IMG/VR virus record: IMGVR_UViG_3300017917_001151
Location: 1-64,000 of that record
DNA length: 64,000 bases
Source of the DNA: a virus
Direction: 5' to 3' (one strand)
Shown: positions 25,813 through 64,000 of the stretch, piece after piece
How the letters are laid out: the number at the start of each line of letters is the position of its first letter
Numbering within the stretch: position 1 is the first letter of the stretch
Translations under genes and position numbers: made by a program
The notes under the pieces: generated by a model
Databases searched by the model: none
Seen by the model: the letters and a program-made list of their open reading frames with translations, nothing else
What the model was told of the DNA's origin: nothing

Positions 25813-25817
25813 ATTAT

Positions 25818-26502: not shown

Positions 26503-26539
26503 CTCTTGCCTCCTGTAAATCAAGCGAGTAAGTTTGATG

Positions 26540-35920: not shown

Positions 35921-36901
35921 ATGTCTACCAATTTTCAAGAAATTCCATTTCAAAACATAGTTCGATTTGGTCAACGAACAATGTTAACCAAACCCTTGTT
36001 TGCCGTAAGTTGGATCCTAGGTAGGTTCTGCAACTACAAATGTAGTTATTGTTGGCCATATGCAAGGTCAGACAAACCTGATCACGAAAGTTTAGAAACT
36101 TACAAATCTACTATCAACGAAATCAAAAGACAGGCTAGACAAAATGGATTCACAGAATTCCACTGGAGCTTTAGTGGCGGCGAACCAACCGCTTACAAAC
36201 ATTTAAATGATCTCATCAAACACCTCGACGAACAGGAAAGTCCTTACCAAAGTGTTCACATGACTACTAATTTGAGTCCCGGTAGTAGTTGGTGGAAAAC
36301 ATGGTGTAACAATACTAGCTTATTGCAAAGAAGAAGTATTACTGCTAGTTTTCACGAGGAATTTGCCAAAGAGACAGAGTTTGGAGACAAGTGTCTGCAA
36401 CTGTTAAATGAATATGTACACGTGACTATCAATCAGGTTATGGTTCCGGAAAAATTTTACGAAACATATGAACAGTGCCAACGATTTCATAAGAGGGGTA
36501 TTAATGTTACTCTTAAACCACAAAGTGATCCTACAGCCAGTTTTATTGTAGATGGCTACACAGAAGATATGATTAATCTTATGCAAACAGGATTTCCTCA
36601 GGAATCATTTGGAGAAGAAGTTTATCAAATAGCGTTATACGACACAGAAGGTAGAGAATATTTGTTTGACCAGGCAGAACGATTTAATACTTTTGGATTC
36701 AATAAATTTCAGGAATGGTCTTGTAATTCTGGATATCAAAGTGTTATAATAAGAGGCAACGAAGTTAAGCGTTCTTATAGCTGCCACGATCAGCCGTTAG
36801 GAAATATTTTAACAGGATTTAATTTGTTCGCTGAACCTAAAAAATGTATCACACCTAGTTGTGTTAGTTCAGCAGACAGTAAGATACCAAAATGCAAATA
36901 G
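35921..36901 (+). CDS. Radical SAM enzyme with C-terminal cysteine-rich (SPASM-like) region
   Basis: A 326-residue radical SAM protein. The [4Fe-4S] motif is Cys37-x3-Cys41-x2-Cys44 (CNYKCSYC), followed by FSGGEPTAY for SAM binding. The C-terminal WSCNSG, SYSCHD and a cluster KKCITPSC...KCK look like ligands of one or two auxiliary clusters. Its nearest relatives in the window are the 330-, 345- and 301-residue rSAM proteins. The methyltransferase-like gene starts 10 nt before its end. The substrate is unknown. Confidence 0.85.
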   Translation: MSTNFQEIPFQNIVRFGQRTMLTKPLFAVSWILGRFCNYKCSYCWPYARSDKPDHESLETYKSTINEIKRQARQNGFTEFHWSFSGGEPTAYKHLNDLIKHLDEQESPYQSVHMTTNLSPGSSWWKTWCNNTSLLQRRSITASFHEEFAKETEFGDKCLQLLNEYVHVTINQVMVPEKFYETYEQCQRFHKRGINVTLKPQSDPTASFIVDGYTEDMINLMQTGFPQESFGEEVYQIALYDTEGREYLFDQAERFNTFGFNKFQEWSCNSGYQSVIIRGNEVKRSYSCHDQPLGNILTGFNLFAEPKKCITPSCVSSADSKIPKCK

Positions 36902-37482
36902 ATACAGAACATTTACATCACTGGATGCAGGCAATACGCCAAAGTCCGGATCCTATGCGTACTATGGACGCATTCTGGTCGGGGCAACTTAAAAGCAAAG
37001 AGTGGTTGATCACAAATCTACGTAAGCACGTTAACAAGTTTGTTACTGTAGATATTCATGGAGGTTGGGTAGGAGTATTGGCTAGTATGCTGTTCCAGAG
37101 CGATGTTCCTATTCTTAATATTCGTAGCATAGACATAGATCCTAATTGCGAACCAATCGCTATCAATATGAACAAGATAGAAGAGATGGTGGGAAAATTT
37201 CAGGCAGTAACATCTGATATGTGTACCGTTAGCAGTAATGCTGATGTTGTTATCAATACTAGCTGCGAACACATAACACAAGAACAATATGATCTATGGC
37301 TGACTGGTCTTCCTCATGATAGGTTATTGGTACTACAGAGCAACAATTATAACATTCCAGAGCACGTTAGAATAGCCAATGACCTAGAAGAATTTAAACA
37401 ACAATGCCATGTTAGTGTGTTATGGGCAGGTGAACTAGAACTACCATTGTATAAGCGGTTTATGATTATAGGAAAAAAATAA
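36892..37482 (+). CDS. SAM-dependent methyltransferase-like protein (class I fold)
   Basis: A 196-residue protein with a Rossmann-like pattern. VTVDIHGGWVGVLASML (about residues 45-62) stands in place of motif I, IRSIDIDPNCEPIAINM gives an acidic strand-end Asp, and ADVVINTSCEHI is motif-IV-like. The glycine motif is degenerate (HGGWVG), so SAM binding is probable but not certain. It overlaps the preceding rSAM gene, so the pair should be co-expressed and may modify the same molecule. Confidence 0.6.
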   Translation: MQIDTEHLHHWMQAIRQSPDPMRTMDAFWSGQLKSKEWLITNLRKHVNKFVTVDIHGGWVGVLASMLFQSDVPILNIRSIDIDPNCEPIAINMNKIEEMVGKFQAVTSDMCTVSSNADVVINTSCEHITQEQYDLWLTGLPHDRLLVLQSNNYNIPEHVRIANDLEEFKQQCHVSVLWAGELELPLYKRFMIIGKK

Positions 37483-37505
37483 TATGTAATCATATTATTG
37501 ATAAA

Positions 37506-38498
37506 ATGGAATTAATTGAAATAAAACAAGACGGATGGGATCCAGAAACATTGTGGGTCGAACTAACTATCGGAAATATCTGCAATTTTAAATGTTGGTA
37601 TTGTTTTCCGGGGTACAACGACGGCAGTATAAAGTGGCCGGACTACGATCTGTTGATTTCTAATCTTTCTCATTTGTTGGATTATTATCAAACACATACA
37701 GATAAGAAAAAATTTGCTATTCATTTATTAGGTGGCGAAATTATTTTTTGGAAGAGATTCGTCGACCTTTCTAAATTTTTAAAAGAAAATTATAACTGTG
37801 TAATCATATTAACAACAAATGCTTCTAAAAATATAGATTGGTGGGAAGAATCTGTTGGATGGTTAGACATTGTTCATATAAGTGTTCATCATGAATTTTC
37901 AAATCCTAAACATATAATCGATGTAGCAGATTTTTTATACGACAAAAAAGTAGAAGTTGAGGTAAATGTATTCATGGATCCCTTTAAATGGGAAACATGC
38001 GCCGACATAGTTGAAGCGTTGAAAAACAGCAAAAATGTTTGGGATATAAATTACAAAGAAATCCAATTTGATATACATAGAAGATATAACAAAGACCAAG
38101 ATGAGTTACTCAATAAAGTAAACGCAAGGTCGTCAAACAAAGACAAAAAATTTGTCATAGCACCGATGTCTCATAGACATTTTGTAAAAGGTGTTGATGT
38201 TAACGGAAAAGAACAATCCTACGGATTTAATGATTTACTTTCTCAAAGAAACAACGAATTTAAAGGTTGGGACTGTAATGTTGGAGTAGATTGGATTGCC
38301 GTTCATGCAGACGGAACAGTTTCTGGAATTTGTAGAAATGGTTTATACAAAGATGGAAAAACTTATAATATTTTTGATCTAAATTTTAAAGAACAGTTCA
38401 ACCCATCTATTACCAGTTCTATTTGTACAACTGATCGTTGTTGGTGTATATTTGAAGTTAATATGCCTAAAAGAAAAATCATACCAATTTTATCATGA
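37506..38498 (+). CDS. Radical SAM enzyme, SPASM-like C-terminus
   Basis: A 330-residue rSAM protein with Cys26-x3-Cys30-x2-Cys33 (CNFKCWYC). The SAM-binding GGEP is replaced by LLGGEIIFW, an uncommon change of Pro to Ile. The C-terminus has the group's hallmark GWDCNVGVDWIAVHADGTVS, a single Cys, and a final ICTTDRCWC, consistent with an auxiliary cluster. It overlaps the next rSAM gene by 4 nt. Radical chemistry is inferred from the family; the reaction is unknown. Confidence 0.85.
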   Translation: MELIEIKQDGWDPETLWVELTIGNICNFKCWYCFPGYNDGSIKWPDYDLLISNLSHLLDYYQTHTDKKKFAIHLLGGEIIFWKRFVDLSKFLKENYNCVIILTTNASKNIDWWEESVGWLDIVHISVHHEFSNPKHIIDVADFLYDKKVEVEVNVFMDPFKWETCADIVEALKNSKNVWDINYKEIQFDIHRRYNKDQDELLNKVNARSSNKDKKFVIAPMSHRHFVKGVDVNGKEQSYGFNDLLSQRNNEFKGWDCNVGVDWIAVHADGTVSGICRNGLYKDGKTYNIFDLNFKEQFNPSITSSICTTDRCWCIFEVNMPKRKIIPILS

Positions 38499-40045
38499 AG
38501 CATCACGTTTTATTTTTTTCATTATCCGGTAAACGATGGGAACGAGCTCTATGGTCTCATAGAGTCGCTACCTTTTTGCGAATGAACGATTGGGATGCCG
38601 AAGTAATTGATTTTGCTTCTTTTTGGAAACTAATAGAACTTCAAGAACTTGTTAGAAGTCGTGTCTCGAATAAAACTGTGATGTTTTGTTTTGGAACTGC
38701 ATTTTTAAATCCGTGGAGCCCCTATATGAATGAATTTATAGCGTGGCTTAAAACAGAATATCCAACCATTCCTGTGGTAGTGGGTGGAAATAATGCATTG
38801 GTAACTCCTGCTGTTGGTGTAGATTATTGGGTTGACAGTTATGGAGAGAACGCTGTTCTTTCTCTTTGCAGACACCTTATTGGAACATTAGGCGCACCTT
38901 TACTAACTGATCCCGCATTCTTCGGTTCAAAGAAAGTTATTAGAGGACTTTATCATTATCCTAGTGCTCCGTTAGACAGTTATCTAGTAGATTACGAAGA
39001 ACGTGATTTCATGAGTCCCTATGAATGTCCTCAGATAGAAACTGCACGTGGTTGTATGTTTAGTTGTTCTTACTGTAACTTTCCTATTATAGGACAAGCT
39101 AAAGACGTAAGTGTGAGCAAAGAAGAATTTAAACGTCAGATGCAGACAGGCTATGAAAAGTGGGGTATTAAGAATTGGCGGGTAATGGATGAAACATTTA
39201 ATGACCGTCCAGAGAAATTGCAAAAGTATGCAGACGCAGTAGACGAGCTAGGATACAATCCGTGGATATGTGGTTTTGCTCGCGGCGACCTAGTTGTTAA
39301 ACATCGAGAGCATTGGGACACTTATATTAGATTAGGATTCCTTGGCCACAGCATGGGCATTGAAACTTTTAACAAAGAAGCAGGTCGACTTGTACGCAAG
39401 GGCATGGATCCAGATAAACTTAAAGAAGGTCTGCTAGAATTTCAAGCATACACAGACATACATGCACCTAGACGTTATAGGGCAAACATACAAATGATCT
39501 GTGGTATCCCGGGTGAAAGTACCGAATCATGGAACGACTCGTTGCAATGGCTCAACACATATTGGTTAAGACAAAGCGCCAGCGCACATATACTAGAAGT
39601 TCCAGATTATGATGAAACATTAACTAACCAAAGTCGTTTTACTAAAGAATTAGTTAGCAATGGTCTAATTAAATTAGATTCTAGGCAGAATCCCGGATAT
39701 GAAGTTTCTAAAGATAATAACGGAAATGTAATATTTAAATCTACAACCCCACGTGGAGGCGGCGTTGGTTCGACTAGAAACGATGTTGTGATATGGAAAC
39801 ACAACAATATGGATTGGTATCAGGCTCAGCAACTAGTAAGTGATTTTTATTCTGAAAACGGATTTAAGGGTCTTAGAGGCTGTAACCCTTTTCTATCAGA
39901 TAGGTTATTTCCGTATTACCAAACAGATGTCTATGAAGATGTATACGATATTAGATTAAGTGATATTGATACAGCTGATCAAAAATATAATGACATTCTA
40001 CAAAATTATATTAACAAAAAGTTAAGTTGGAGTCCCAGTGTTTAA
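38495..40045 (+). CDS. Radical SAM enzyme with B12-binding-like N-terminal domain (COG1032-like)
   Basis: A 516-residue protein. Residues 1-135 form a Rossmann-like domain of the kind found in B12-binding rSAM proteins (VVVGGNNALV), but the DxHxxG cobalamin motif is not seen. The rSAM core has Cys187-x3-Cys191-x2-Cys194 (RGCMFSCSYCNFP), ICGFARGDL and the strand motif QMICGIPGES. C-terminal residues 360-516 are an extra domain. Two paralogues lie at 56.2-57.8 and 59.5-60.9 kb. B12-dependent methylation or B12-independent chemistry cannot be distinguished. Confidence 0.85.
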   Translation: MKHHVLFFSLSGKRWERALWSHRVATFLRMNDWDAEVIDFASFWKLIELQELVRSRVSNKTVMFCFGTAFLNPWSPYMNEFIAWLKTEYPTIPVVVGGNNALVTPAVGVDYWVDSYGENAVLSLCRHLIGTLGAPLLTDPAFFGSKKVIRGLYHYPSAPLDSYLVDYEERDFMSPYECPQIETARGCMFSCSYCNFPIIGQAKDVSVSKEEFKRQMQTGYEKWGIKNWRVMDETFNDRPEKLQKYADAVDELGYNPWICGFARGDLVVKHREHWDTYIRLGFLGHSMGIETFNKEAGRLVRKGMDPDKLKEGLLEFQAYTDIHAPRRYRANIQMICGIPGESTESWNDSLQWLNTYWLRQSASAHILEVPDYDETLTNQSRFTKELVSNGLIKLDSRQNPGYEVSKDNNGNVIFKSTTPRGGGVGSTRNDVVIWKHNNMDWYQAQQLVSDFYSENGFKGLRGCNPFLSDRLFPYYQTDVYEDVYDIRLSDIDTADQKYNDILQNYINKKLSWSPSV

Positions 40046-41090
40046 GTTTGATCAATTAGAACAAATCCATTTAGAGATTACAAATAATTGTCAGGCGTCT
40101 TGTCCTATGTGTACAAGAAACATTAACAGCGGATTAGAGAATCCATTAATTAAAATACAGAATTGGACACTAGGCGACTTTAAGACCATAATGTCTGAAG
40201 AAGTATTGAAACAAATTAAGAGTTATTATTTCTGCGGAAACTTTGGTGATCCGATCATTAATAATGACCTTATTGAAATGTGTAGGTATACAACAGAAGT
40301 ATCTCCAGATGTTCGAGTCGCTATTCATACAAACGGTGGCGCAAGAAGCAAAGCATGGTGGACACTATTAGCTCACGCACTTCCAAAAAATCATTCAGTG
40401 ATGTTCGCCATAGACGGGTTAGAAGATACTCATCAGCTGTATAGGGTAGGAACGACCTATGACGATGTTGTTGAAAATGCTCGTGCTTTTATTCTAGCAG
40501 GCGGTAATGCCGAATGGGTGTTTATTAAATTTAAACACAACGAACATCAGGTAGACGAAGCAAGACGTAGAGCTAACAAATTAGGGTTTTCTAAATTTAC
40601 ATTAAAAAATAGTAGACGTTTCATTGTAGAACCTTTTGTAAAAGTATTGGATAGAAACGGAAACTTAACACACGTCATTGAACCTTCAACTGAAACTCCT
40701 CTGAAGTTTATCGATAGAAAAATAATAGATTCTTATAAACAGATAGTTGATAGTTCTGTCATAAGTTGCGAAGTCCAAAAAAATAAAGAAGTGTATATAG
40801 ATGCTTACAAAAATTTATATCCGTGTTGTTGGTTAGGCAATGTACCTTATAGTTCTGGAAATTTAGAATTCGAAGTACAGAAAGAAACTAAACAACAGCA
40901 TCTAGAACTTGTAAAAAAATTAGGAAATACTAATACGATAGATAGATCTATAAAAGACATTATCAACAGTAACGAATATCAAACTGTTTGGCATGATTAT
41001 TGGAACATAAACAAACTAATTGTTTGTGCTAGAACCTGTAGTGTCAACACTAGTTTTTCTAAACCAAAGGATCAATTCGTATGCGAATAA
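40038..41090 (+). CDS. Radical SAM/SPASM-type enzyme (CQASCPMC group)
   Basis: A 350-residue rSAM protein starting with GTG at 40038. The cluster motif is Cys18-x3-Cys22-x2-Cys25 (EITNNCQASCPMC), followed by YYFCGNFGDPIINNDL (the GGEP position reads GNFGDP) and IHTNGGARS. The C-terminal part has SCEVQKNKEVYIDAYKNLYP-CC, as in SPASM domains. A paralogue of near-identical layout is encoded at 49.8 kb. It overlaps both neighbours by 8-10 nt. Confidence 0.85.
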   Translation: MFKFDQLEQIHLEITNNCQASCPMCTRNINSGLENPLIKIQNWTLGDFKTIMSEEVLKQIKSYYFCGNFGDPIINNDLIEMCRYTTEVSPDVRVAIHTNGGARSKAWWTLLAHALPKNHSVMFAIDGLEDTHQLYRVGTTYDDVVENARAFILAGGNAEWVFIKFKHNEHQVDEARRRANKLGFSKFTLKNSRRFIVEPFVKVLDRNGNLTHVIEPSTETPLKFIDRKIIDSYKQIVDSSVISCEVQKNKEVYIDAYKNLYPCCWLGNVPYSSGNLEFEVQKETKQQHLELVKKLGNTNTIDRSIKDIINSNEYQTVWHDYWNINKLIVCARTCSVNTSFSKPKDQFVCE

Positions 41091-41926
41091 AAATTGCTCC
41101 TGAATACTCTGCAGACTATTTAGAAATAGAACGACCACAACCATTGTCGGACAATCTTTTAGAAAAGACAATACAAGATGTAATGTCTGGAAAAATTAAT
41201 TCTAAGTTTGATTTAGTCTACGACGAATTTAAAAAAGAAATGCCAGGGTGGTTATTAAAAAGTAGAGTAAATCATTTAACCGGATTAGATACCTTTACAC
41301 GTTTAGACATTATAAATGGTTGCACTCAGTTTATCGACAACCTGTATATGCAGGGACCTGTGCAAGTACTTCGCGGTGATTATAGATACCACCAAAGATT
41401 AGGATTAGCGTATGTTAAGGATGTGGGCTCGCTGATTCCAGATATTCCTTTAATCGTAGCAATGCCGTTTCCTAGCATTGGTGCTCCACATCAAGACATG
41501 GAGGAAATACTATATGAATGCAAACTTAAAAATATTAAAGTGCATATTGATGGTGCTTGGATCAGTTGCTGCAGGGATATTAATTTTGATTTTAGTAATG
41601 AAGTTATTAGATCCGTTGGCATCAGCCTTAGTAAAGGTCTTGGTTTAGGTTGGAACAGAATAGGCTTACGTTGGACTAAAGACACTGAAGCAGATAGTAT
41701 TACAATCATGAATGACTTTAACATGAACCTACGTGCTACTGCTATGATCGGTCTTCACTTTATTCGAAATATAGAAGTAGATTATCTTTGGAATACACAC
41801 AAAGATAGATACTATAAAGTTTGTAAAGATTTTGAGCTAACACCTACTAAGGCTATATATCTAGCATTAAAAGATAATCAACCAGTCGGTGTTAGCCCAT
41901 TAATAAGATATTTAGAAAATGAGTGA
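41081..41926 (+). CDS. PLP-dependent aminotransferase-like enzyme (fold type I)
   Basis: A 281-residue protein resembling the large domain of aspartate-aminotransferase-type enzymes. Asp157 (VHIDGAW) would contact the pyridine nitrogen, and Lys185 in SLSKGLGLGWNRIGLRW is the likely Schiff-base lysine, set in the sequence context usual for this fold. The protein is shorter than most family members (about 380-450 residues), so the small domain may be reduced. It lies between two rSAM genes, overlapping both by 8-10 nt. A transamination or C-S/C-C lyase step on the unknown substrate is inferred. Confidence 0.72.
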   Translation: MRIKIAPEYSADYLEIERPQPLSDNLLEKTIQDVMSGKINSKFDLVYDEFKKEMPGWLLKSRVNHLTGLDTFTRLDIINGCTQFIDNLYMQGPVQVLRGDYRYHQRLGLAYVKDVGSLIPDIPLIVAMPFPSIGAPHQDMEEILYECKLKNIKVHIDGAWISCCRDINFDFSNEVIRSVGISLSKGLGLGWNRIGLRWTKDTEADSITIMNDFNMNLRATAMIGLHFIRNIEVDYLWNTHKDRYYKVCKDFELTPTKAIYLALKDNQPVGVSPLIRYLENE

Positions 41927-43304
41927 AAAGATCAAAAGCTACATTAAGTTAATTGAAGAACGTACAGGTTCTCCTACGTTCTGTGTTTTGCCATGGGTGC
42001 ATATGGCTACCAGACCAAATGGAGATTGCAGATTATGCTGTGTAGCTAATGCCAGCGGTGCTCAAACGGGCGACCATGCAGTTGGCCTCGTTAGAAAAGA
42101 AAATGGACGACCAGCTAACTTCGGAGTAGATACACCCGTTGAAGCATTTAATAATGAGTACATGAAGAATGTAAGATTAACGATGCTAGATGGAAAAGTT
42201 CCTGCAAGTTGTACAAAATGTTTTGAAGAAGAAAGCAACGGCGTTGTTAGTAAACGTTTGTGGGAAATGTACGATTGGAACAATGATGGCTTTGACTTTA
42301 ATAAGGTCATCGATGAAACAGCAGAGGACGGAACAGTTCCTCCTGTAATTAGATACCTGGATCTAAGATTAGGTCATACCTGCAATTTGAAATGCGTTAT
42401 GTGTAGTCCTCATGACAGCAGCCGTTGGGTACAAGATTATGACAAGGTTATGTCATCAGTTAAAAGTCCTATCGTATTAAAACAAATTAATTGGGACGGA
42501 AACGAATTTAACAATTACTGGTATGAAAAGCCAGAATTCTGGGACGATATATTTGCACAGATTCCAAACATAAAGAAACTATACTTTGCAGGCGGCGAGC
42601 CTTTGATGATTAAAGAACATCAAAGATTCTTAGAAGAAATTATTGCTAGAGGATATGCAAAAGAAATAAGTCTAAGATATAACTCTAATGGTATATTGTT
42701 AACAGAAAAAATGATAGAGTTGTGGACTAATTTTAAACACGTAAAGTTTAATGTTAGCATTGATGCCGAGGGTGATCGTAATTACTATATTCGTTATCCT
42801 ACAGAATGGAATGATGTAATCCGTGTGTTGAAACGCTTAGACGAAACACCCGATAATATTTCTTCTAGTATTGAAGTAGCAGTCCAGGCATTGAATGCAG
42901 AGCATTTACCTGACTTTGCTAAATTTGTTTTAGGACAAAATTTTAAAAAAGTCAATAAACATTATCTATCAGAGTATCAAGCAGGTGGCGGAATATTCAG
43001 TATGCACCTGTTATTCATTCCTACATTTTTATCTGCACGTATTCTTCCTAAGGAACATAAAGAACGTATTCGTAAAAAGTTTATGGAATTTAAACAATGG
43101 CTATGGGACAACTATAGACAAGACGATGACTTCTGGGTCAATAATCCTTACGGCTGGGCACGTTGGGAAGCCATATTAAAATTTATCGAAGCAGAAGATC
43201 ACAGTTATATGCTTCCAGACTTTAAAGATTATTTTAACAATTTAGATAATATCAGAAGTTTAAATGCATCAACAACATTTCCGGAGTTAGGAGATATACT
43301 TTGA
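41919..43304 (+). CDS. Radical SAM enzyme with N-terminal cysteine (twitch/SPASM-like) module
   Basis: A 461-residue protein. An N-terminal cluster module precedes the core: Cys22, Cys37, Cys40/41 (CRLCC) and Cys98-x2-Cys101. This order is reversed compared with normal SPASM rSAM proteins, where the auxiliary cluster follows. The rSAM motif is Cys155-x3-Cys159-x2-Cys162 (CNLKCVMC) with YFAGGEPLM. The nearest relative is the 421-residue protein at 45.2 kb. It overlaps both neighbours by 4-8 nt. Confidence 0.85.
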   Translation: MSEKIKSYIKLIEERTGSPTFCVLPWVHMATRPNGDCRLCCVANASGAQTGDHAVGLVRKENGRPANFGVDTPVEAFNNEYMKNVRLTMLDGKVPASCTKCFEEESNGVVSKRLWEMYDWNNDGFDFNKVIDETAEDGTVPPVIRYLDLRLGHTCNLKCVMCSPHDSSRWVQDYDKVMSSVKSPIVLKQINWDGNEFNNYWYEKPEFWDDIFAQIPNIKKLYFAGGEPLMIKEHQRFLEEIIARGYAKEISLRYNSNGILLTEKMIELWTNFKHVKFNVSIDAEGDRNYYIRYPTEWNDVIRVLKRLDETPDNISSSIEVAVQALNAEHLPDFAKFVLGQNFKKVNKHYLSEYQAGGGIFSMHLLFIPTFLSARILPKEHKERIRKKFMEFKQWLWDNYRQDDDFWVNNPYGWARWEAILKFIEAEDHSYMLPDFKDYFNNLDNIRSLNASTTFPELGDIL

Positions 43305-47196: not shown

Positions 47197-47200
47197 GAAA

Positions 47201-47230
47201 TATTTAACCTATAAACTACGCATATAAATA
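47201..47230. promoter_or_regulatory. Divergent late promoters for the QueC-like (-) and oxygenase (+) operons
   Basis: Minus strand: GTTAAATATTTC then ATG, 4 nt after the motif (47206-47201). Plus strand: the exact late motif TATAAATA (47223-47230) followed by TTTTT and ATG, exactly 5 nt. Both genes are therefore predicted to have leaderless messages, and neither ATG has a ribosome site in the available space. Confidence 0.65.
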
Positions 47231-47235
47231 TTTTT

Positions 47236-49062: not shown

Positions 49063-49063
49063 T

Positions 49064-49747: not shown

Positions 49748-49755
49748 GATATCGA

Positions 49756-53123: not shown

Positions 53124-53150
53124 GATTAAGGTATCCTATTATCTACTTCA

Positions 53151-53160
53151 TAAATATTTA
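53151..53160. promoter_or_regulatory. Overlapping bidirectional late promoter (CATAAATATTTAACG)
   Basis: The two TAAATA motifs overlap: plus 53151-53156, minus 53160-53155. The minus transcript would have a leader of about 26 nt with AGGATA before the ATG at 53123; the plus transcript a leader of about 36 nt before the ATG at 53198. Confidence 0.55.
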
Positions 53161-53197
53161 ACGTAGATATAATAAGGGATATGGTAAAGTGGAATCG

Positions 53198-56246: not shown

Positions 56247-57795
56247 TATTTTTCCTATCTTCTAACATTTTTATAAGTCTTGGGTAATAATCTAATTCAA
56301 CAATTTCATAAACTACTTGCTCAGGTATGTATGATTCTAGATTAAATTTAGTTCTCAATCTTGAAACCTGGAATCCCATAACTTTCATAAAATGTCCTAG
56401 GTATTGAGGTCCAAATATTTTCTTTTGTATTTCTACAATTTTTTCGTGATACTCAACTGCTAGCCTTTCTGCTTGATTCCTATCACGGATATCTCCAGTA
56501 TCTTTTTCAGTTTTCTCCCATAGGCCACCGTGAAAATCGATATGCTCGTCTGATAGCTCCTCGCTGGAAAATTTATATCCAAAATCGCTAATTCTATTAT
56601 CCATATCTGATACGAATATTCTATATGGATCGTGTTTTCTATTTTCTAATGACAAAAATAAAGGATTGATATTTGCGAAGTCTATGTAGTTGTGTCCTTC
56701 TTCTTCGTACCAAGAAATAAAGTTCTCAAAAGATTCAGTTGTATCGTTAGGTAGACCTACAATTAAATTTGCCACTACCATAACATCTTTGCCCCAACAT
56801 TCTTTAGCGATTTTCAAAGCCTGAATCTTTCGATCTCTCGACCCGCCTTTTTTAATAATTTTAGCTGTTTCTGGGTTCCATGTTTCTAATCCGTACATCA
56901 CATACTTAACACCAATCTTTTTCAATAGAGGCGCCATTTCAGGGTGGGCACCTATTAGATCGATTCTTGTATACGCAGCGAAATCGGGTTGGAAAGGAAG
57001 TTTCTCTATAACTTCGCTGAGTAGTTGAAGTTTATATACACTGTCATTAAAGGTATCGTCAACAATGAAGTAGGTAGTTACTCCCCATTTTTCATAATTA
57101 GACAACAGTTCATTATAAACAACTTCTTGATATTTTAGATAATCTATTGTTTTAGATCCTATCATAGGAAATGAACAAAATGCGCACTTAAAAATACAGC
57201 CTCTAGCGAATTCAACTGACAGTAATTCCTCAGCGTGTATTAAATCGTATTCAGTATATTCAATAGAAGAAGCATTAAAGTTAAAGTCCTTGGCCTTAAC
57301 ATCATGACTAATGATTCTAGGCAGGTTAAAGAAAGGTATAGACATACTGTCTAAGTAAGTTTCAATTTGACCTTCACTATAGCCAATAAAAATGTTGTCA
57401 ATTGATTCCTGATCTATATACTTGTGCGCAGTAAATCCACCTAAGATTATTTTTACATTAGGATTTATTGATTTAATATAATCTGCGAAGGGTTTTACGT
57501 TTTTATTTTTAAAATTAATGCTGACTGATTTTTCTTTCCAGTCGTCCGTATCAGGAAATATATCTACCTGAGAATCAAACCAGTTGGCACTAAAACCAAC
57601 AATTAAGGTTTCTTGGTCTACAGACAAATCGATAATGTTTTTAAACTTTTCCCAGTTCAGTGCAAACGAATAATTTACAACTAGTGTTTCATAGCCTTTA
57701 TTTCTGATGGCCGAAGCAATACTGTATGTTCCGGCAGATCGTGTAAAGCCGAACCTTACTTCCGAGTCGCTGAATAAAATAACTTTAAATGTCAT
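56239..57795 (-). CDS. Radical SAM enzyme with B12-binding-like N-terminal domain (COG1032-like)
   Basis: A 518-residue relative of the 516- and 491-residue proteins. The N-terminal Rossmann-like domain (ILFSDSEVRFGFTRSAGTYS, IILGGFTAH) lacks a DxHxxG motif. The core has Cys200-x3-Cys204-x2-Cys207 (RGCIFKCAFCSFPMIG), VDDTFND and NLIVGLPNDT. All three share the CxFPxxG that follows the third Cys. It overlaps the zinc-ribbon rSAM gene upstream by 11 nt. Confidence 0.85.
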   Translation of the reverse strand: MTFKVILFSDSEVRFGFTRSAGTYSIASAIRNKGYETLVVNYSFALNWEKFKNIIDLSVDQETLIVGFSANWFDSQVDIFPDTDDWKEKSVSINFKNKNVKPFADYIKSINPNVKIILGGFTAHKYIDQESIDNIFIGYSEGQIETYLDSMSIPFFNLPRIISHDVKAKDFNFNASSIEYTEYDLIHAEELLSVEFARGCIFKCAFCSFPMIGSKTIDYLKYQEVVYNELLSNYEKWGVTTYFIVDDTFNDSVYKLQLLSEVIEKLPFQPDFAAYTRIDLIGAHPEMAPLLKKIGVKYVMYGLETWNPETAKIIKKGGSRDRKIQALKIAKECWGKDVMVVANLIVGLPNDTTESFENFISWYEEEGHNYIDFANINPLFLSLENRKHDPYRIFVSDMDNRISDFGYKFSSEELSDEHIDFHGGLWEKTEKDTGDIRDRNQAERLAVEYHEKIVEIQKKIFGPQYLGHFMKVMGFQVSRLRTKFNLESYIPEQVVYEIVELDYYPRLIKMLEDRKNND

Positions 57796-58855
57796 CTTTT
57801 CTGTGTCCGTAGTTGTCTATATATTCTTGAGGAATAGTATCCCATAAATTTAAACCTTTATTCACTGCACAATCTCGAAGTATAACTTGGTGTACTAACG
57901 GAGATCTTGGTTTTCCTGGTAGTATATCAGCCATGGCTTCGGTCTGAACTTCTAGTAAGTCCAATGTTTTAGCATCAGGCCACTGAATTATTTTAACAAG
58001 GATTCCGTTAATTGTCATTGGATAGTGTGCCCTATTGCCGGTGTAGGGATCAAATCCCACCTGCCATTTATTTTTTTCAGCAATACGGTTAGCTTCCTTC
58101 ACTAGATCAGATAAAAAGATTTTCGGACCTCCTGGATAACGACCAATGTCTGCTCCGCATCTTACTCTATATTGTTCACATATACCTGTACCGAATTGTT
58201 GTATTTCTTCTAAGCAATATTCCATCTGATCTAATGTTTCTAATGTATAACTAACATTCTTAATACGAAGACCAACGTCTTGCATATTCTTAATGCCTTC
58301 CATCTGCTTCATACGAACAGTGCGTCCTTGGTAATCGGGGTGGTTAAGGCCGATAGTCCACATGACATTTTTTAAGTCTTTAAACTGTTCTACATATTCT
58401 CTTTCGGATAATCTAACTCCGTTGGTTAGAATCATGATGCCACGAGGCTTACCGGGCAATGCTTGTATTGCTTTAATAAACTCAGGAAGGTCTTTTCTTA
58501 CAGTCGGCTCTGCTCCACACAGGGCTACAGGAAAACCGTCATCTGGCCAACTTTTAATAATGTTTAAAAAATAATCTATAGGCTTATCTTTGCTCATATT
58601 GTCCGGTTCTTGATAGCAGTTTGGACAATTTAAATTGCAACGATTGGTGATATCAATGAGATAACTTTGTAGTGCTTCTCTCGGATAGTTATAATTTAAA
58701 TAAAAGTCTGCATCTGGTTCAACTAGATGTTCACTGTATCCGTGATGTTTGCAGGTTTTACCTAACCAAATTTGACCGTCGCGGTGAAACCTTGTAGCAG
58801 GTACATGCCTGTAACAATTCTCACATACTGATAATGTGTCTTCTAGTTTAATCAT
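57785..58855 (-). CDS. Radical SAM enzyme with N-terminal zinc-ribbon-like domain
   Basis: A 356-residue protein. Cys11-x2-Cys14 and Cys35-x2-His-His (CENC...TCKHHG) form a probable zinc or rubredoxin-like site, as in the MJ0619/tetraether-synthase type of rSAM protein. The core has Cys73-x3-Cys77-x2-Cys80 (CNLNCPNC); GGEP is changed to LCGAEPTV. The C-terminus ends ILPGKPRSPLVHQVILRDCA, also found in two paralogues. The family link to lipid or other C-C bond chemistry is only by analogy. Confidence 0.83.
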   Translation of the reverse strand: MIKLEDTLSVCENCYRHVPATRFHRDGQIWLGKTCKHHGYSEHLVEPDADFYLNYNYPREALQSYLIDITNRCNLNCPNCYQEPDNMSKDKPIDYFLNIIKSWPDDGFPVALCGAEPTVRKDLPEFIKAIQALPGKPRGIMILTNGVRLSEREYVEQFKDLKNVMWTIGLNHPDYQGRTVRMKQMEGIKNMQDVGLRIKNVSYTLETLDQMEYCLEEIQQFGTGICEQYRVRCGADIGRYPGGPKIFLSDLVKEANRIAEKNKWQVGFDPYTGNRAHYPMTINGILVKIIQWPDAKTLDLLEVQTEAMADILPGKPRSPLVHQVILRDCAVNKGLNLWDTIPQEYIDNYGHRKDDI

Positions 58856-58871
58856 GTGGGTTCAAAAAATT

Positions 58872-58885
58872 CATAAATATTTATG
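58872..58885. promoter_or_regulatory. Perfectly palindromic bidirectional late promoter
   Basis: CATAAATATTTATG is a 14-bp perfect palindrome, so both strands read CATAAATA from the same bases (plus TAAATA 58874-58879, minus 58883-58878). The plus gene has an AAGGAG site and a leader of about 27 nt; the minus gene has a leader of about 17 nt without a ribosome site. Confidence 0.6.
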
Positions 58886-58911
58886 GTATAAAATATACTA
58901 AAGGAGCCTTT

Positions 58912-59475
58912 ATGAAAGTTGCTATAACAGGACATACCAGTGGTATTGGTTTGTCATTAGCTGAAAAGTTTTTAGAAAATAAATGTGAAGTTGTTGGATT
59001 TAGCCGATCTAACGGATTTGATATTGGAAACGAGGCTCACAGAATGGAAATTCTTAACAAGATAGATGACTGTGATGCATTTATCAATAATGCCTTCCAC
59101 GATGACGGACAATTAAAACTGTTAGAAGGTGTTATGAAAAGATGGGAAGGAGCCAATAAACACGTTGTTAACATCTCGAGCGTTATTGTTTTGATGCCCG
59201 AAAACAATTTTGTGCAATGGCCAAAGGTTCACAGTTATAGATCTGCGAAGTTAAATCTAAATAATTTTGCAAGAAATTATAAGGGTAGTGTTAGATTACT
59301 CAATGTTCTTCCCGGAATTGTAAAAACAAATTTTTATTTAATAGATGAGAATCCAGAAGCAATGGTTAATGCTATGGATGTGTCTTTTGTTACAGATAAA
59401 ATTATAAACGTTTTTTTCAATGAGGGTTATGCAACAAAACAGATCGTGATTTCAAAAGCAACTCAAGGATTATGA
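58912..59475 (+). CDS. Short-chain dehydrogenase/reductase
   Basis: A 187-residue SDR. The N-terminal cofactor motif TGHTSGIG (6-13), NNA-like INNAFHD (about 58-64) and catalytic Ser90, Tyr109-x3-Lys113 (SYRSAK) are present. It is shorter than the classical 250 residues, with a reduced C-terminal substrate loop. NAD(P)-dependent oxidation or reduction of a pathway intermediate is inferred. A good ribosome site (AAGGAG) precedes the ATG. It overlaps the following rSAM gene by 4 nt. Confidence 0.88.
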   Translation: MKVAITGHTSGIGLSLAEKFLENKCEVVGFSRSNGFDIGNEAHRMEILNKIDDCDAFINNAFHDDGQLKLLEGVMKRWEGANKHVVNISSVIVLMPENNFVQWPKVHSYRSAKLNLNNFARNYKGSVRLLNVLPGIVKTNFYLIDENPEAMVNAMDVSFVTDKIINVFFNEGYATKQIVISKATQGL

Positions 59476-60947
59476 TTAAAAATTTTCATTCTATAATTTT
59501 TAATATGGGGGCTTTGGGCGAATACATTAAAGGTAGAACGTCTGGAGCTTATCGTATTGCCACAGAACTACGAACACAAGGTTGGGACGTGGAAGTTGTA
59601 GATTTCTTTTATTTTTGGAAATTAGAAGAATTAAAAGAATTATCCAGAAATAGAATCAATAAGAACACGAAGTTTATAGGCTTTAGTCATATTTTCAGTG
59701 ACTGGCCAGAACTAGCTGAAGATTATACTACATGGGTAAAAGAAAATTATCCCGATATTAAGATTATCTTTGGCTGCAATGCTTATAAAAATTTTAATAC
59801 AAAAAACATAGATTATTATGTTGCCGGTTATGGAGAGTTGGCTTTACTTACATTATTAGAATATCTGTTTAGCAACGGAACTAGACCTATAATAACTCCC
59901 ATCGACGGCAACAGAGTCATTGAAGCACAAAAATATTATACTGCAACTCCTTGGAGAGAACCAAGCATCTTCTATGAAGATAGAGATTTTATCAAAGATC
60001 ACGAATGGCTTGGTATTGAGTTTAGTAGAGGATGTAAATTTAAATGTGCCTATTGTAATTTCCCTGTACTAGGTGTGAGAGGAGATTACGGTAGAAACCT
60101 TGACGGTGCGAAACTTCAATTACAAGATGCATACGATAGATTCGGTACAACGAAGTATCTAATCAGCGACGAAACATTTAACGATAGAACAGAAAAAATT
60201 ACTAAGATTGCCGACATGATCGAAACCTTAGAGTTTCAACCGTTCTTTGCATCGCATATTAGAGCAGATTTATTAATATCTAGGCCGCACGAAAAAGAAG
60301 AACTTCTGAGAATGAATACTTTATTCCATTTTTATGGAATAGAATCTTTTAACTACGAGTCTGCCAGAGTATGTGGCAAAGGTATGAAGTCTGAAAGACT
60401 AAGAGAAGGTGTTATTAACATTAAAAATTTCTTTAAAAATAACGGCACAGGTTATTATAGAGGCACCATCGGCCTTATTGCAGGTCTTCCATACGAAACA
60501 GAAGAGTCAGTTATAGATACGATTAAGTTTTTGAACGAGCATTGGAAAGGCGAAAATGTGATGTTAAATCCTCTAGACATTTATAAGTCGTCTTTGGCCA
60601 ACGTTTCTATATTTGAAGAGAAGTTTGACGAGTTTGGTTATCGAGTGATGACTGAAGTTCCGGAAGAATATAGAAACGGATCTAGAGAGTTAGCGACCGG
60701 ACCTCGATTTACTCCTAATTCTGTTATATGGGAAAATGATCACACCAACTATTATAGGATTAGAGAAATCGTTTCTAAGTTAAGAGATACATTTGACGAT
60801 GTATATAGACTTGCCTGCTTTGAATTGTCCAATGACTTTTCTGATAAAGGACTGGAACATACACTAACTATACCATATAGTACATTTGGTGGCGAGTATC
60901 AAACAGCGTTTGTGGAAAATTATAAGAAACAAAAATTAGGATTATAA
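59472..60947 (+). CDS. Radical SAM enzyme with B12-binding-like N-terminal domain (COG1032-like)
   Basis: A 491-residue member of the same group as the 516- and 518-residue proteins: GKRWER-like start replaced by IKGRTSGAYRIATELRTQGW, VDFFYFWKLEELKELSRNRI (also close to the 516-residue copy), IIFGCNAY, then Cys188-x3-Cys192-x2-Cys195 (RGCKFKCAYCNFP) and GLIAGLPYET. No DxHxxG is found. The SDR before it suggests a shared substrate. The 3' end overlaps the convergent gene by 6 nt. Confidence 0.85.
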   Translation: MIKNFHSIIFNMGALGEYIKGRTSGAYRIATELRTQGWDVEVVDFFYFWKLEELKELSRNRINKNTKFIGFSHIFSDWPELAEDYTTWVKENYPDIKIIFGCNAYKNFNTKNIDYYVAGYGELALLTLLEYLFSNGTRPIITPIDGNRVIEAQKYYTATPWREPSIFYEDRDFIKDHEWLGIEFSRGCKFKCAYCNFPVLGVRGDYGRNLDGAKLQLQDAYDRFGTTKYLISDETFNDRTEKITKIADMIETLEFQPFFASHIRADLLISRPHEKEELLRMNTLFHFYGIESFNYESARVCGKGMKSERLREGVINIKNFFKNNGTGYYRGTIGLIAGLPYETEESVIDTIKFLNEHWKGENVMLNPLDIYKSSLANVSIFEEKFDEFGYRVMTEVPEEYRNGSRELATGPRFTPNSVIWENDHTNYYRIREIVSKLRDTFDDVYRLACFELSNDFSDKGLEHTLTIPYSTFGGEYQTAFVENYKKQKLGL

Positions 60948-62069
60948 AAGTCTTTTAGGTTTCTTTGCAGGACTTTCAAACTTGTATTCTAACTCGCTAA
61001 TTTCTATAGGTCCGGACCAATTCTTTTTCCAATAGTTGCTTTCAAACTTTTCTTTTAGCACGTAGTGGTCCGGGACTATATCAAGACGTTTCATTTTATT
61101 ATTTGTAAACGCATCTCTTAATATAACCTGATGAATGTAATTAGTAATCGGACCTTCGTTAAACGCTGCCCAAGGTCCGTTGTTTAATTCTTCCATATCT
61201 GCACTTCTAACATCGGGCCATTGGATTACACGAATATTCATACCCTTCCAGTTGTACATATTATGATATAAATTTTCTTCTAGGGGTGTATGAACAAGCT
61301 CGTCGCCTAACAGTTTCTTCAATGCTTTAACTGTAGTGCTTAGATAATTCCTTCCGCCGGTGCTACGACCAATGCTGGCACCCATTCTAATTCTAACTAG
61401 ATTAACTTTGTCTCTACCTATCTTATCTAATTCTTCTAATATCTCAGGTAGGTGATCTAGATCCTCGAGGGTATAACCTATACCATCTAGTCGGCCGTGT
61501 TCTTTAATGTTCTCTATACCGCGAAGTTGTTTTTCGTGTACTTTTTTACCTTGATATGTCCAATGATTTAAACCTACAGCCGGTAATATAGTACGTCCGG
61601 TGAGTAGTTCTTTTGCCCAGTCGTTGTCGGCAAATCTAAGACCGTTGGTTAACATTCTAACTTTTCCAAAGTCATCTGCTAATTTGTGACTCAATGGAAT
61701 AATTTCTGAATATAGAGATGCTTCTGCTCCGGCAAGAATAGGAATAAACCCTTCTGGAAACATTTCAGGTATTCTAATTAAACTACTCATAGGACTGTCT
61801 ATGTATTTGTTATCCGGAAGTTGATAACAATGAGGACAGTTTAACTGACACTTGTTTGTTACTTCAAACATAATCGAAACAAATTCACTTTCGTCGGTTT
61901 TAGAAAGACCGTAATAGTATTCCAAATCAATTTCAACTACTTCTTCCATGATGCCGTGCTCTGGACATTTTTTAGATAACCAAATTTTATCATCTCTTTC
62001 AAAGACAACACCTGGAATGTGTCGATAACATTCATTGCAAAGACCGACTGTATTGTGTATAAATTTCAT
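60942..62069 (-). CDS. Radical SAM enzyme with N-terminal zinc-ribbon-like domain
   Basis: A 375-residue paralogue of the 356-residue protein: Cys11-x2-Cys14, Cys35-x2-His (CNEC...KCPEHG), then Cys74-x3-Cys78-x2-Cys81 (CQLNCPHC) and LAGAEASLYS at the GGEP site. GLNHWTYQGKKVHEKQLRGI parallels GLNHPDYQGRTVRMKQMEGI of the other copy. A late motif lies exactly 5 nt before the ATG, so the message should be leaderless. Confidence 0.84.
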   Translation of the reverse strand: MKFIHNTVGLCNECYRHIPGVVFERDDKIWLSKKCPEHGIMEEVVEIDLEYYYGLSKTDESEFVSIMFEVTNKCQLNCPHCYQLPDNKYIDSPMSSLIRIPEMFPEGFIPILAGAEASLYSEIIPLSHKLADDFGKVRMLTNGLRFADNDWAKELLTGRTILPAVGLNHWTYQGKKVHEKQLRGIENIKEHGRLDGIGYTLEDLDHLPEILEELDKIGRDKVNLVRIRMGASIGRSTGGRNYLSTTVKALKKLLGDELVHTPLEENLYHNMYNWKGMNIRVIQWPDVRSADMEELNNGPWAAFNEGPITNYIHQVILRDAFTNNKMKRLDIVPDHYVLKEKFESNYWKKNWSGPIEISELEYKFESPAKKPKRLL

Positions 62070-62074
62070 AGCAT

Positions 62075-62093
62075 TATTTATGGCCTATAAATA
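62075..62093. promoter_or_regulatory. Divergent late promoters for the zinc-ribbon rSAM (-) and oxygenase (+) genes
   Basis: Minus strand: CCATAAATAATGCT then ATG, TAAATA at 62080-62075 with exactly 5 nt to the ATG. Plus strand: exact TATAAATA (62086-62093), GTTG, then ATG at 62098. Both genes start at the predicted +1 and neither has space for a ribosome site. The whole intergenic region is only 28 nt. Confidence 0.65.
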
Positions 62094-62097
62094 GTTG

Positions 62098-62844
62098 ATG
62101 TTTAAAATATTTGATAACTTTTTCACCGAAGAAGAGTGTAATACCGCTGCTGAATATGTAAAACAAAAAGAATCTTCATGGTATAAATGCCCGTGGACCG
62201 GTATGTATATTCTTGGAAATAGTTTGTTTCGTAAAATTACATTTACAGAATCTGGAATAGACTACGGAAATTATTTTGAGATTGGATCTATAGATTCGCC
62301 TGCCTCACAAATTCTTAAAAATAAGTTAACAAATAATTTTAATAAAGTTGAATTTGTGAATGGCCTTAGTAAGCCCGGATTTCAAATTATTAAATTAAAC
62401 GAAAGCAAAGATCCTAGCGTCTGGCATTACGATGATATGATTACTTGTTTTCCTTTTGAAAAATATTTCAAAGACTACACAGGAAATTTTAATGAATATT
62501 TTGATCAAAAATTAATTTTTACAGTGCTGTTAAGCGATGGACACTATACTTTCGACTACTATCCCGAAACGTTATCAGAGTTTGGAAAAGATTATAAAGA
62601 AGCACGTAACACAAGTCCTATATGTCCCCAGCATCGAAATCTAATAGGAGACGACTGTGCAAATCCGGATTGTACATTAAAGGAATTTAAAACACTTTAT
62701 TATAAAAAGGGTATGATGTTATTGCAAGACGAAAGATATTTGCATCGAGTCGGACTAGTAGATTTAAATGGTACTAGTGATCTTAGAATAACTTTGCAGG
62801 GATACGGTCTTGTTAAGGACGATATTCTTTATTTGATATGGTGA
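62098..62844 (+). CDS. Fe(II)/2OG oxygenase-like protein (P4H-like)
   Basis: A 248-residue protein from the ATG at 62098; an in-frame TTG three bases upstream is the only alternative. FKIFDNFFTEEECNTAAEYV is a typical prolyl-4-hydroxylase-type N-terminus. Metal ligands His110-x-Asp112 (VWHYDDM) and a distal His in YLHRVG, with Arg in LRITLQG, complete the site. An insert of about 50 residues with HxNLIGDDCANPDC may bind zinc. It overlaps the convergent methyltransferase gene by 16 nt. Confidence 0.75.
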   Translation: MFKIFDNFFTEEECNTAAEYVKQKESSWYKCPWTGMYILGNSLFRKITFTESGIDYGNYFEIGSIDSPASQILKNKLTNNFNKVEFVNGLSKPGFQIIKLNESKDPSVWHYDDMITCFPFEKYFKDYTGNFNEYFDQKLIFTVLLSDGHYTFDYYPETLSEFGKDYKEARNTSPICPQHRNLIGDDCANPDCTLKEFKTLYYKKGMMLLQDERYLHRVGLVDLNGTSDLRITLQGYGLVKDDILYLIW

Positions 62845-63488
62845 ACAATCAATTTGTTGTATCGGATGTTTTCATCAGGTCCGCAGCTCAAAGAAATAAC
62901 ATTATAATTATAATCTTTAGTTTGTTCTAAGACTTCATCTTTAGTATAAGATGCCATAAATGATCGTTTTGTATCTGTAATATACTTTTCATCGAACATT
63001 GGCATCATTAGATTAAACAGATTATCTAAAGAAGAAATTTCATCGGGTCTTTCTAAGTCTACTACAAATACATTATCGCTGAGATTCTTAACAGTTTTCC
63101 AAAGGTTTTCGGTGTCGTTAATATGATGTAAAACTCTATTAATTAAAACACCGTCGTAGTTCCCTGTTGCAGATAACAGATCACCTTTTATAATTTTTAT
63201 TCTATCCGACAGGTTGTTATTTTTAATATTCTCCTCGGCTAGAGAAATCATAATATCTGACATTTCATAGCAATCAAATGTAAGGTCGGGAAATTCTAAA
63301 CACAATGCGATTACAAAATTACATGGGCCGGAGCCAAGGTCTGCAATTTTACCAGCTGTCACATTAAAATAATTTTTATATAAGGTTATGTAGTCGACTA
63401 GATCGTATGAATTTATAAGAGATTGATTATAAAAGTTGCAACCTTCAATGTCGGTCATTAAATCATAATCTTCTGGAATGCGTTTCAT
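62829..63488 (-). CDS. SAM-dependent methyltransferase (class I)
   Basis: A 219-residue Rossmann methyltransferase. Motif I is IADLGSGPCNF (about residues 48-58), then CYEMSDIMI with the acidic end of strand 2, IKGDLL, and DGVLINRVLHHIND (motif IV-like). The layout is that of UbiE/TylM-type small-molecule methyltransferases. Its ATG overlaps the stop (ATGA) of the rSAM gene upstream, so they are translationally coupled. Confidence 0.86.
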   Translation of the reverse strand: MKRIPEDYDLMTDIEGCNFYNQSLINSYDLVDYITLYKNYFNVTAGKIADLGSGPCNFVIALCLEFPDLTFDCYEMSDIMISLAEENIKNNNLSDRIKIIKGDLLSATGNYDGVLINRVLHHINDTENLWKTVKNLSDNVFVVDLERPDEISSLDNLFNLMMPMFDEKYITDTKRSFMASYTKDEVLEQTKDYNYNVISLSCGPDENIRYNKLIVHHIK

Positions 63489-64000
63489 CTATATTTCTCC
63501 GGTAATGTATCGAATAAAAATTGCTGTTCATTAAACGATCTATCTCTTAATATAACCTGATGTAGTAAAGGACTCATTGGCTTTCCTGGAATCATATCAG
63601 CATAGGATTCAGAAAATGTTTCGTTAAAATCTATGGTCTTAACGTCGACCCATTTGATTAGTCTATGAACTAAGCCGTTGATCCTTACTAAGAAGTGTGT
63701 TCGATTACCCTCTATAGGATCAACGTCCCACGTCCATCCTTTTATTTTACAGAGTTTCTCTGCTTCTTTTACTAGATCTGATAGGTATAACTCCGGACCG
63801 TGGTCTTCGGGAGTCCTTCCTATATCTACTCCGACCTGTATCCTTGCATTGTCACATATACCTTTTCGATTCCATTCTTGTATTTCTTCTAAAACAAAAT
63901 CAAGTTGTTTAAGATCTCCGAGGGTGTATGTAAAATTTTTTATTTGCAGACCTAATTCAACACAATTTTTAATACCTTGTTCTTGTTTGCTTCGAATAAC
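63485..64000 (-). CDS. Radical SAM enzyme, C-terminal part (third zinc-ribbon type, cut by window edge)
   Basis: 171 residues are visible before the right edge; the N-terminus and cluster cysteines lie outside. The visible part aligns with the C-terminal half of the 356-residue protein: KQEQGIKNCVELGLQIKNFT / YTLGDLKQ, DIGRTPEDHGPELYLSDLVK, DPIEGNRTHF, and MIPGKPMSPLLHQVILRDRS. This makes a third paralogue of the group. Its stop overlaps the start of the methyltransferase gene. Confidence 0.82.
   Translation of the reverse strand, partial: VIRSKQEQGIKNCVELGLQIKNFTYTLGDLKQLDFVLEEIQEWNRKGICDNARIQVGVDIGRTPEDHGPELYLSDLVKEAEKLCKIKGWTWDVDPIEGNRTHFLVRINGLVHRLIKWVDVKTIDFNETFSESYADMIPGKPMSPLLHQVILRDRSFNEQQFLFDTLPEKYR

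Follow-up and report, generated by a model that had tools for sequence, protein, structure and literature searches.

The virus record IMGVR_UViG_3300017917_001151 of IMG/VR (82,851 bp), from a large aquatic phage, carries a block of 15 radical S-adenosylmethionine (rSAM) genes, which ranks among the largest rSAM sets known from phages and which belongs to an island common to hundreds of uncultured phages. The window analysed here is bases 1-64,000 of that record, whilst the island spans 35.9-73.2 kb (~37 kb) and ends past the window; besides the rSAM genes it is rich in oxygenases and other tailoring enzymes. We suggest, tentatively and as something short of probable, that it encodes a tailoring pathway, expressed late, by which the virion is decorated, probably at its fibres, via glycan or side chains.

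A prediction previously made for the window had reported 14 rSAM genes between 35.9 and 64.0 kb. That number stands, with 13 genes complete in the window by Pfam and the 14th complete in the record; the extent has to be revised, as the island runs on to ~73.2 kb and includes a 15th rSAM gene. The Pfam model Radical_SAM (PF04055) matches 13 in-window proteins, 12 above its curated cut-off and one, from the gene at 60.9 kb, slightly below it (28.8 against 29.5 bits) with a PF23545 zinc ribbon also present. In a search of the whole record each of the 15 lies above the PF04055 cut-off and none has internal stops, and all 15 are assigned to the rSAM superfamily by a CxxxCxxC motif in the PF04055 domain. 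They fall into five groups: SPASM-like (SP, four copies), CQASCPMC-type (CQ, two), twitch-domain (TW, two), B12-type class B (B12, three) and zinc-ribbon (ZN, four). Profile searches with PF23545 and NF033640 back this division for two of the groups (Table 1): the TW pair scores 388.6 and 336.2 bits against the NCBIfam NF033640 (N_Twi_rSAM) cut-off of 170, and the HMPTM zinc ribbon PF23545 is found at the N-terminus of all four ZN proteins, although the ZN protein encoded at 57785-58855 fails the equivalog cut-offs for Tes and TrsS (74.9 and 78.9 bits against 450 and 490). The paralogous groups proposed originally are real, but the B12 label is less secure, as two of its members fall below the PF02310 cut-off (18.7 and 19.1 bits against 32.1), the 38.5-kb gene has no PF02310 match and the PhpK-like model TIGR04479 gives at most 76.4 bits against a cut-off of 600.

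The island has a coding density of 0.98 and its neighbouring genes overlap by a few bases, the open reading frames (ORFs) being arranged in operons just as had been described; its GC content is ~0.36 as opposed to ~0.41-0.42 directly to its left. Host contamination or misassembly, the doubt raised when the island was first noticed, is rejected, since the island recurs in 49 other viral contigs checked and phage genes flank it on both sides in this record; a chance assemblage is likewise rejected. A CQ-family query found 359 related stretches in viral contigs, and all 24 of the CQ-derived contigs tested carry between 4 and 13 rSAM domains. As these contigs had been picked via a gene that is itself an rSAM, a second, non-rSAM seed was used, namely og8, a 2-oxoglutarate (2OG)-oxygenase-like gene which is the best conserved non-rSAM gene of the island (mean column identity 75%). 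This seed found 155 viral stretches and nothing matching among 50,697 cultured-phage records. Among the best 80 of the 155 stretches an rSAM gene lies within 10 kb in every case and at least three rSAM genes are found in 76, with partner counts over the 61 long loci among them of 61 for kin (a protein-kinase-like fold), 58 for gnat12 (acetyltransferase-like) and 45 for gt13 (family F13). Twenty-five of the larger og8 contigs hold 6-15 rSAM genes apiece, one besides this record reaching 15, and contigs of 169, 186 and 191 kb hold 8, 12 and 10 respectively; over all 49 other contigs examined the range is 4-15 rSAM domains.

There is a conserved core around the rSAM genes that consists of oxygenase-like proteins, the kinase-fold protein, gnat12, a methyltransferase and a protein combining a GT-A-like glycosyltransferase domain with a methyltransferase domain (gt13). 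Six-frame hidden Markov model counts over 22 contigs find SP, TW and CQ in all 22, og9 in 21, MT10 and og6 in 20, kin and og8 in 19, ZN and the QueC-like gene in 16, gnat12 in 15, B12 and gt13 in 14 and PLP18 in 11. Many contigs share a layout in which a convergent TW+ SP+ SP- TW- block is followed by og9, kin and og6. Around this core the accessory genes differ among relatives and include a Trp halogenase, a fatty acid desaturase, a class III aminotransferase and UDP-glucose dehydrogenase-like and APS kinase-like genes, whilst an amidinotransferase is absent from this record and found in 8 of the 22 relatives.

Several of the 2OG-oxygenase, pyridoxal phosphate (PLP), acetyltransferase (gnat12) and methyltransferase labels were inferred from motifs by eye and are putative. 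MT10 is 49-87% identical to 13 relatives and has no match among the same 50,697 cultured-phage records, and the QueC-like protein conserves both its SGGADS loop and a CGxCxWC motif. The predicted structure of F13 (predicted local distance difference test, pLDDT, 84.6) has a GT-A-like N-terminal and an NNMT-like C-terminal domain, the GT-A assignment being one of fold level because whole-chain TM-scores are low. When the PP-loop, PLP-like and F13 families were searched as profiles against the PDB, there were no matches. Residue counts for kin reveal neither a conserved catalytic Asp nor a conserved catalytic Lys, and an active kinase is accordingly disfavoured.

Median dN/dS by family is 0.05-0.17 and the rSAM families are under purifying selection; across the five groups 208 of the 209 homologues retain CxxxCxxC, and the 15 genes of the record have no internal stops, so that absent or frameshifted motifs, which would have spoken against the prediction, are not what is seen. 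Together with the recurrence of the multi-rSAM island, carried here by a putative T4-type phage, this upholds the view that the genes are maintained as working units. The paralogues within the record are 1.1-4.7 substitutions per site apart and most group with copies from other contigs, which points to ancient, highly divergent lineages, every one of them more closely related to a copy from a different phage than to its fellow copies; recent tandem duplication is rejected, the nearest relative lying on the same contig for just 9 of the 209 homologues. That the copies represent parallel versions of the same chemistry on related substrates is not shown, as with lineages of such age and divergence distinct reactions are as likely as the same chemistry.

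Two motifs known from other phages, the T4 late promoter TATAAATA (PMC1524935) and the cyanophage late promoter NATAAATA (PMC2984593), link the island to late expression. TATAAATA is not enriched across the whole window, only at operon heads, and N[AT]TAAATA occurs at 10 of the 12 divergent island heads of this record. Across contigs ATAAATA is found at 33 of 43 divergent island junctions, where 20 permutations of the same letters gave a median of 6 and a maximum of 12, and NATAAATA is found at 41 of 139 island operon heads against 9.2 expected (maximum 18 across 200 resamplings), at 15 of 105 non-island heads and at 2 of 302 internal island genes. This pattern suggests that the island is expressed late in infection. 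A tail-fibre gene with an Mtd_N domain adjoins the island and bears the same late-promoter motif, and lies one or two genes away from the island in all nine contigs where it was called. With 15 rSAM genes in one block and this fibre gene alongside, the island is classed as an rSAM-rich host-recognition module of T4-type phages. It was also observed that, where island heads bear NATAAATA, roughly one in two has its called start codon just 4-5 nt past the end of the motif (e.g. 47223-47236), which implies either leaderless mRNAs or a start codon that has been called too early.

Outside the island the phage encodes, side by side, IscA and IscU, which likely supply clusters for the rSAM enzymes, and a superoxide dismutase that could possibly protect Fe-S clusters. 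The same pairing of rSAM and Fe-S supply genes has been reported for other viruses (Nishimura 2017, PMC5332604). These three genes, the late-promoter motifs and most of the non-rSAM core were absent from the original prediction.

The roles suggested in that prediction, a surface glycan, a modified nucleotide or modification of the virion fibres, are all retained here as readings, and the one we favour is decoration of the virion. The island would be expressed late, alongside the virion genes, with the phage helping to supply its own Fe-S clusters through IscU and IscA and the dismutase acting as protection. The rSAM enzymes would carry out C-methylations and demanding changes at C-H and C-C bonds, and oxygenases, methyltransferases, the acetyltransferase-like protein and the GT-A-plus-methyltransferase protein would add and cap further groups. 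The likeliest target would be the phage surface and above all the adjoining tail fibre, through either attachment of an unusual glycan or direct modification of side chains. We favour this because of the late-promoter motifs, the adjoining Mtd_N fibre, the GT-A-like protein and the likeness to host-recognition-type DNA, and count in its favour as well the purifying selection, the Fe-S supply genes, the sugar-transferase annotations in the CP220 rSAM module, the GT2 genes that flank bacterial relatives and the position of the pelagimyophage rSAM cassettes; and as accessory tailoring genes vary around a constant core, the decoration would be expected to vary between phages in the way that host-range regions do. 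A bolder form, that the rSAM and oxygenase pathway rebuilds the virus's own adhesive fibres (side chains or glycan) and so makes host range or escape from defences dependent on post-translational radical chemistry encoded by the virus, is possible but leans towards the unlikely.

A number of observations weigh against virion decoration. The late timing, read from sequence, the enzyme activities and above all the substrate are inferred, no substrate or product having been seen. Some late genes of T4-type phages are non-virion genes. The GT-A match of F13 is at fold level (whole-chain TM ~0.2), and kin is a core protein that has the fold without the usual catalytic residues and without an obvious role in the island. 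Of the 32 records scanned, a large part being fragments, 8 have IscU, and a 186-kb record with 12 rSAM genes lacks it; phage-made Fe-S supply is therefore optional and the idea of the Fe-S genes as an obligate partner of the island is rejected. Finally, small molecules derived from amino acids would also be consistent with the Trp halogenase, amidinotransferase and AMP-binding genes.

Should virion decoration be correct, hundreds of aquatic phages would encode a conserved late radical-enzyme pathway, phages would make complex covalent decorations and many new rSAM and 2OG enzymes could be drawn from these islands. The question is testable because the cultured Pelagibacter phage Mosig EXVC030M holds a smaller homologous island.

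Remodelling of a glycan on the host surface (lipopolysaccharide O-chain or capsule), which might for example block adsorption of other phages or of the phage's own progeny to the dying cell, is the strongest of the alternatives and is on balance unlikely. It is what has been proposed for glycosyltransferases in a similar region of pelagimyophages (PMC7029224), and it would fit the KdsA-like DAHP_synth_1 and weak GT8-like proteins at 24-26 kb of the record, the UDP-glucose dehydrogenase-like (F43) and epimerase-like (F59) genes of relatives and the family 2 glycosyltransferase (GT2), GLF and DegT genes that adjoin bacterial relatives. Within the island just one glycosyltransferase-like gene is present and a clear sugar-nucleotide pathway is lacking. 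Exclusion genes of T4 are usually early, whereas the heads of these operons bear late-type motifs.

More doubtful is the production of a modified amino acid or of a small molecule that diffuses, as a phage natural product or cofactor, by peptide-like tailoring without a ribosomal precursor in the island. Many tailoring classes are present, the record encodes PLP-like and AMP-binding proteins, and accessory genes of relatives include the Trp halogenase, class III aminotransferase, APS kinase-like protein, fatty acid desaturase and an amidinotransferase homologous to gp086 of phage CP220; no scaffold builder (non-ribosomal peptide synthetase, polyketide synthase or terpene enzyme) was recognised, the AMP-binding protein amounts to a partial domain of 220 aa, and a secreted product would leave the association with late promoters and a fibre gene unexplained. 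The AMP-binding protein (L005, 9543-10205) aligned solely to positions 169-330 of PF00501, so it could be an adenylating enzyme that is split or incomplete.

A pathway for ribosomally synthesised and post-translationally modified peptides (RiPPs) of the proteusin type, acting on a dedicated small precursor, is very improbable: SPASM, twitch and B12-type rSAMs with methyltransferases and 2OG oxygenases do recall proteusin clusters, yet island coding densities are 0.89-1.0, NCBIfam RiPP-maturase models score far under cut-off, recurrent matches in gaps are antisense to or fragments of known genes, and a precursor is rejected as no conserved small ORF family occurs in the island gaps of the contigs examined, in line with the earlier failure to see one. 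Least probable of all, and hardly to be expected, is modification of phage DNA bases, e.g. to 7-deazaguanine derivatives, for although there is a QueC-like gene in the island, a QueD-like gene at 26 kb and a QueE-like rSAM in a related contig, the latter two lie outside the island, 6 of the 22 contigs lack the QueC-like gene and known deazaguanine pathways have no place for most of the island enzymes. Of the FolE-QueD-QueE-QueC set, QueC-like and QueD-like proteins are the ones recognised in this fragment.

The idea that phages carry only single rSAM genes does not hold: there are 11 in Campylobacter phage CP220 and 12 in CPt10 (Timms 2010, PMC2853527), 12 together with an A-type Fe-S carrier reported for the T4-like TARA_ERS488813_N000010 (Nishimura 2017, PMC5332604), and rSAM cassettes in pelagimyophages that sit in a host-recognition cluster with fibres and glycosyltransferases (Zaragoza-Solas 2020, PMC7029224). 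Phages with 11-12 rSAM genes have thus been known since 2010, and what is new here is the larger set, the defined core, the late-promoter motifs, the adjoining tail-fibre gene, the presence of IscU, IscA and the dismutase in one genome with the island, and the wide distribution. CP220 and CPt10 resemble the island in being T4-related with many rSAMs, which in their case include an exchangeable module of five. In the CP220 rSAM module two proteins have annotated nucleotide-diphospho-sugar transferase domains; three CP220 rSAMs have their best match in CQ and another in SP, and the CP220 amidinotransferase gp086, absent from this record, is homologous to family F17 of island relatives (25%, E 2e-25). 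CP220 differs in that identity is ~25% and the 41-kb stretch searched gave no match to the N_Twi pair, the og8, kin and gnat12 core or the oxygenase families. The pelagimyophage cassettes are similar to the island in being a hypervariable region adjoining fibre genes, and Mosig shares at least eight families including CQ, SP, MT10, PLP18, fatty acid desaturase, epimerase, TauD and AspH; it has, however, two rSAMs of island families compared with 15 here, and the stretch searched contained no N_Twi, ZN, B12 group, og8 or kin match. Across cultured phages CQ relatives are found in CP220, F379 and Mosig at ~25% identity, a twitch query gave weak partial matches only and a megablast of 36-60 kb gave no match. 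TARA_ERS488813_N000010 is like the island in that a single T4-like genome combines many rSAMs with genes for Fe-S assembly, but it was treated in terms of Fe-S supply and recycling, and the passages of PMC5332604 consulted describe neither the anatomy of an island nor promoters or partner genes.

Bdellovibrionota and related bacteria also have clustered relatives of CQ, TW, SP, MT10, QueC-like and PLP18 genes. These differ in identity (~29-40% for the better CQ matches), in their flanking GT2 genes and in og8 not being found in the loci examined. GT2 accounts for 7 of 81 flanking proteins compared with 118 GT2 genes in ~25 Mb (seven such genomes), a clear excess though the two locus sets are not identical.

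Table 1. Features of the island and of the Fe-S gene cluster in IMGVR_UViG_3300017917_001151 (22 contigs: six-frame counts; AF2, AlphaFold2)
Feature	Coordinates	Strand	Evidence
SP rSAM, left-operon head	35921..36901	+	PF04055 E 4.6e-11; SP family in 22/22 related contigs
MT10, small class-I-methyltransferase-like	36892..37482	+	Fold read by eye from motifs; no Pfam match; 20/22 contigs
SP rSAM	37506..38498	+	PF04055 E 6.1e-8
B12 rSAM, PhpK/ladderane-like	38495..40045	+	PF04055 1.2e-13; TIGR04479 57.8 bits, under cut-off 600
CQ rSAM	40038..41090	+	PF04055 2.1e-7; 359 related viral stretches; 22/22 contigs
PLP18, probable fold-type-I PLP enzyme	41081..41926	+	Motif-based: invariant D157, K185 in SLSKGLGLGWN; no Pfam or PDB profile match
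TW rSAM	41919..43304	+	NF033640 388.6 bits (cut-off 170)
SP rSAM	43301..44338	+	PF04055 5.8e-13
SP rSAM, centre of convergent TW+ SP+ SP- TW- layout	44318..45223	-	PF04055 1.8e-12
TW rSAM	45216..46481	-	NF033640 336.2 bits; N-terminal SPASM PF13186 2.2e-8
QueC/TilS-like PP-loop ATPase, C-terminal zinc-ligand-like cysteines	46468..47196	-	PF01171 7e-4, TIGR02432, phrog_1550, all weak; 16/22 contigs
Exact T4-type late-promoter motif TATAAATA, og9 operon head	47223..47230	+	Motif match
og9, probable 2OG-Fe(II)-oxygenase-like	47236..47907	+	H/D...H...R by eye; no Pfam match; 21/22 contigs
kin, protein-kinase-like fold, pseudokinase-like	47904..48578	+	AF2 pLDDT 91.7; Foldseek kinases E ~1e-6 to 1e-5
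og6, probable 2OG-oxygenase-like	48571..49062	+	Motif alone; 20/22 contigs
og14, AspH-like 2OG oxygenase family	49064..49747	+	Shares family with PF05118-bearing 53189 protein
CQ rSAM	49756..50844	+	PF04055 5.3e-8
TauD/TfdA-type 2OG dioxygenase	50839..51672	-	PF02668 1.8e-26
og3, three in tandem, 2OG-oxygenase-like by motif	51662-52189, 52189-52755, 52752-53123	-	No Pfam match
CATAAATA late-promoter-like motif, divergent head	53149..53156	+	Motif match
og14, Asp/Asn beta-hydroxylase-like oxygenase	53189..53743	+	PF05118 3.5e-9
og3, og14 and F89, small oxygenase/cupin-like	53727-54242, 54242-54823, 54820-55443	-	PF07883 weak on 54242-54823
og8, 2OG-oxygenase-like	55443..56246	-	Motif FEHRD...WHGG...R; 155 viral stretches
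B12 rSAM	56239..57795	-	PF04055 1.8e-20; PF02310 weak
ZN rSAM, HMPTM/Tes/TrsS-like	57785..58855	-	PF04055 8.2e-14; PF23545 1.2e-13
CATAAATA late-promoter-like motif, divergent head, beside mirror copy on - strand	58872..58879	+	Motif match
SDR16, short-chain dehydrogenase-like	58912..59475	+	PF00106 6.2e-8
B12 rSAM	59472..60947	+	PF04055 3e-10; PF02310 weak
ZN rSAM	60942..62069	-	PF23545 8.9e-15; PF04055 1.6e-6, slightly below cut-off
Exact T4-type late-promoter motif TATAAATA, at 62095 gene	62086..62093	+	Motif match
F130, prolyl-hydroxylase-like by motif	62095..62844	+	No Pfam match; present also in contigs G003, G017
MT33, class I SAM methyltransferase	62829..63488	-	PF08242 1.6e-9
ZN rSAM, truncated by window end	63485..64000 (full 63485-64534 in record)	-	Full gene: PF04055 7.5e-12, PF23545 3.3e-12
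15th rSAM, beyond window	71399-72562 of record		Whole-record PF04055 search
IscA-type Fe-S carrier	21648-21974	-	PF01521 1.1e-16
IscU scaffold	21925-22326	-	PF01592 2.5e-54
Fe/Mn superoxide dismutase	22327..22887	-	PF02777 4.1e-21

With regard to the affiliation of the phage, the T4-type sign in this fragment is a gp9/10 N-domain; gp23 was found in contigs G035 and G049 and in neither this fragment nor the remaining large contigs tested. The clamp loader (window 1585-2508) is most like that of giant Pseudomonas PA5oct-type phages (55% identity) and the phage is therefore not close to classical T4. Elsewhere in the window 23127-24209 holds a UvdE-type UV endonuclease gene, and KdsA-like DAHP_synth_1, weak GT8-like and QueD-like proteins are encoded together at 24210-26523. 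Two contigs filed under Rickettsiales and Chloroflexi metagenome-assembled genomes (L166 and L184) appear by eye to be phage DNA with rSAM islands.

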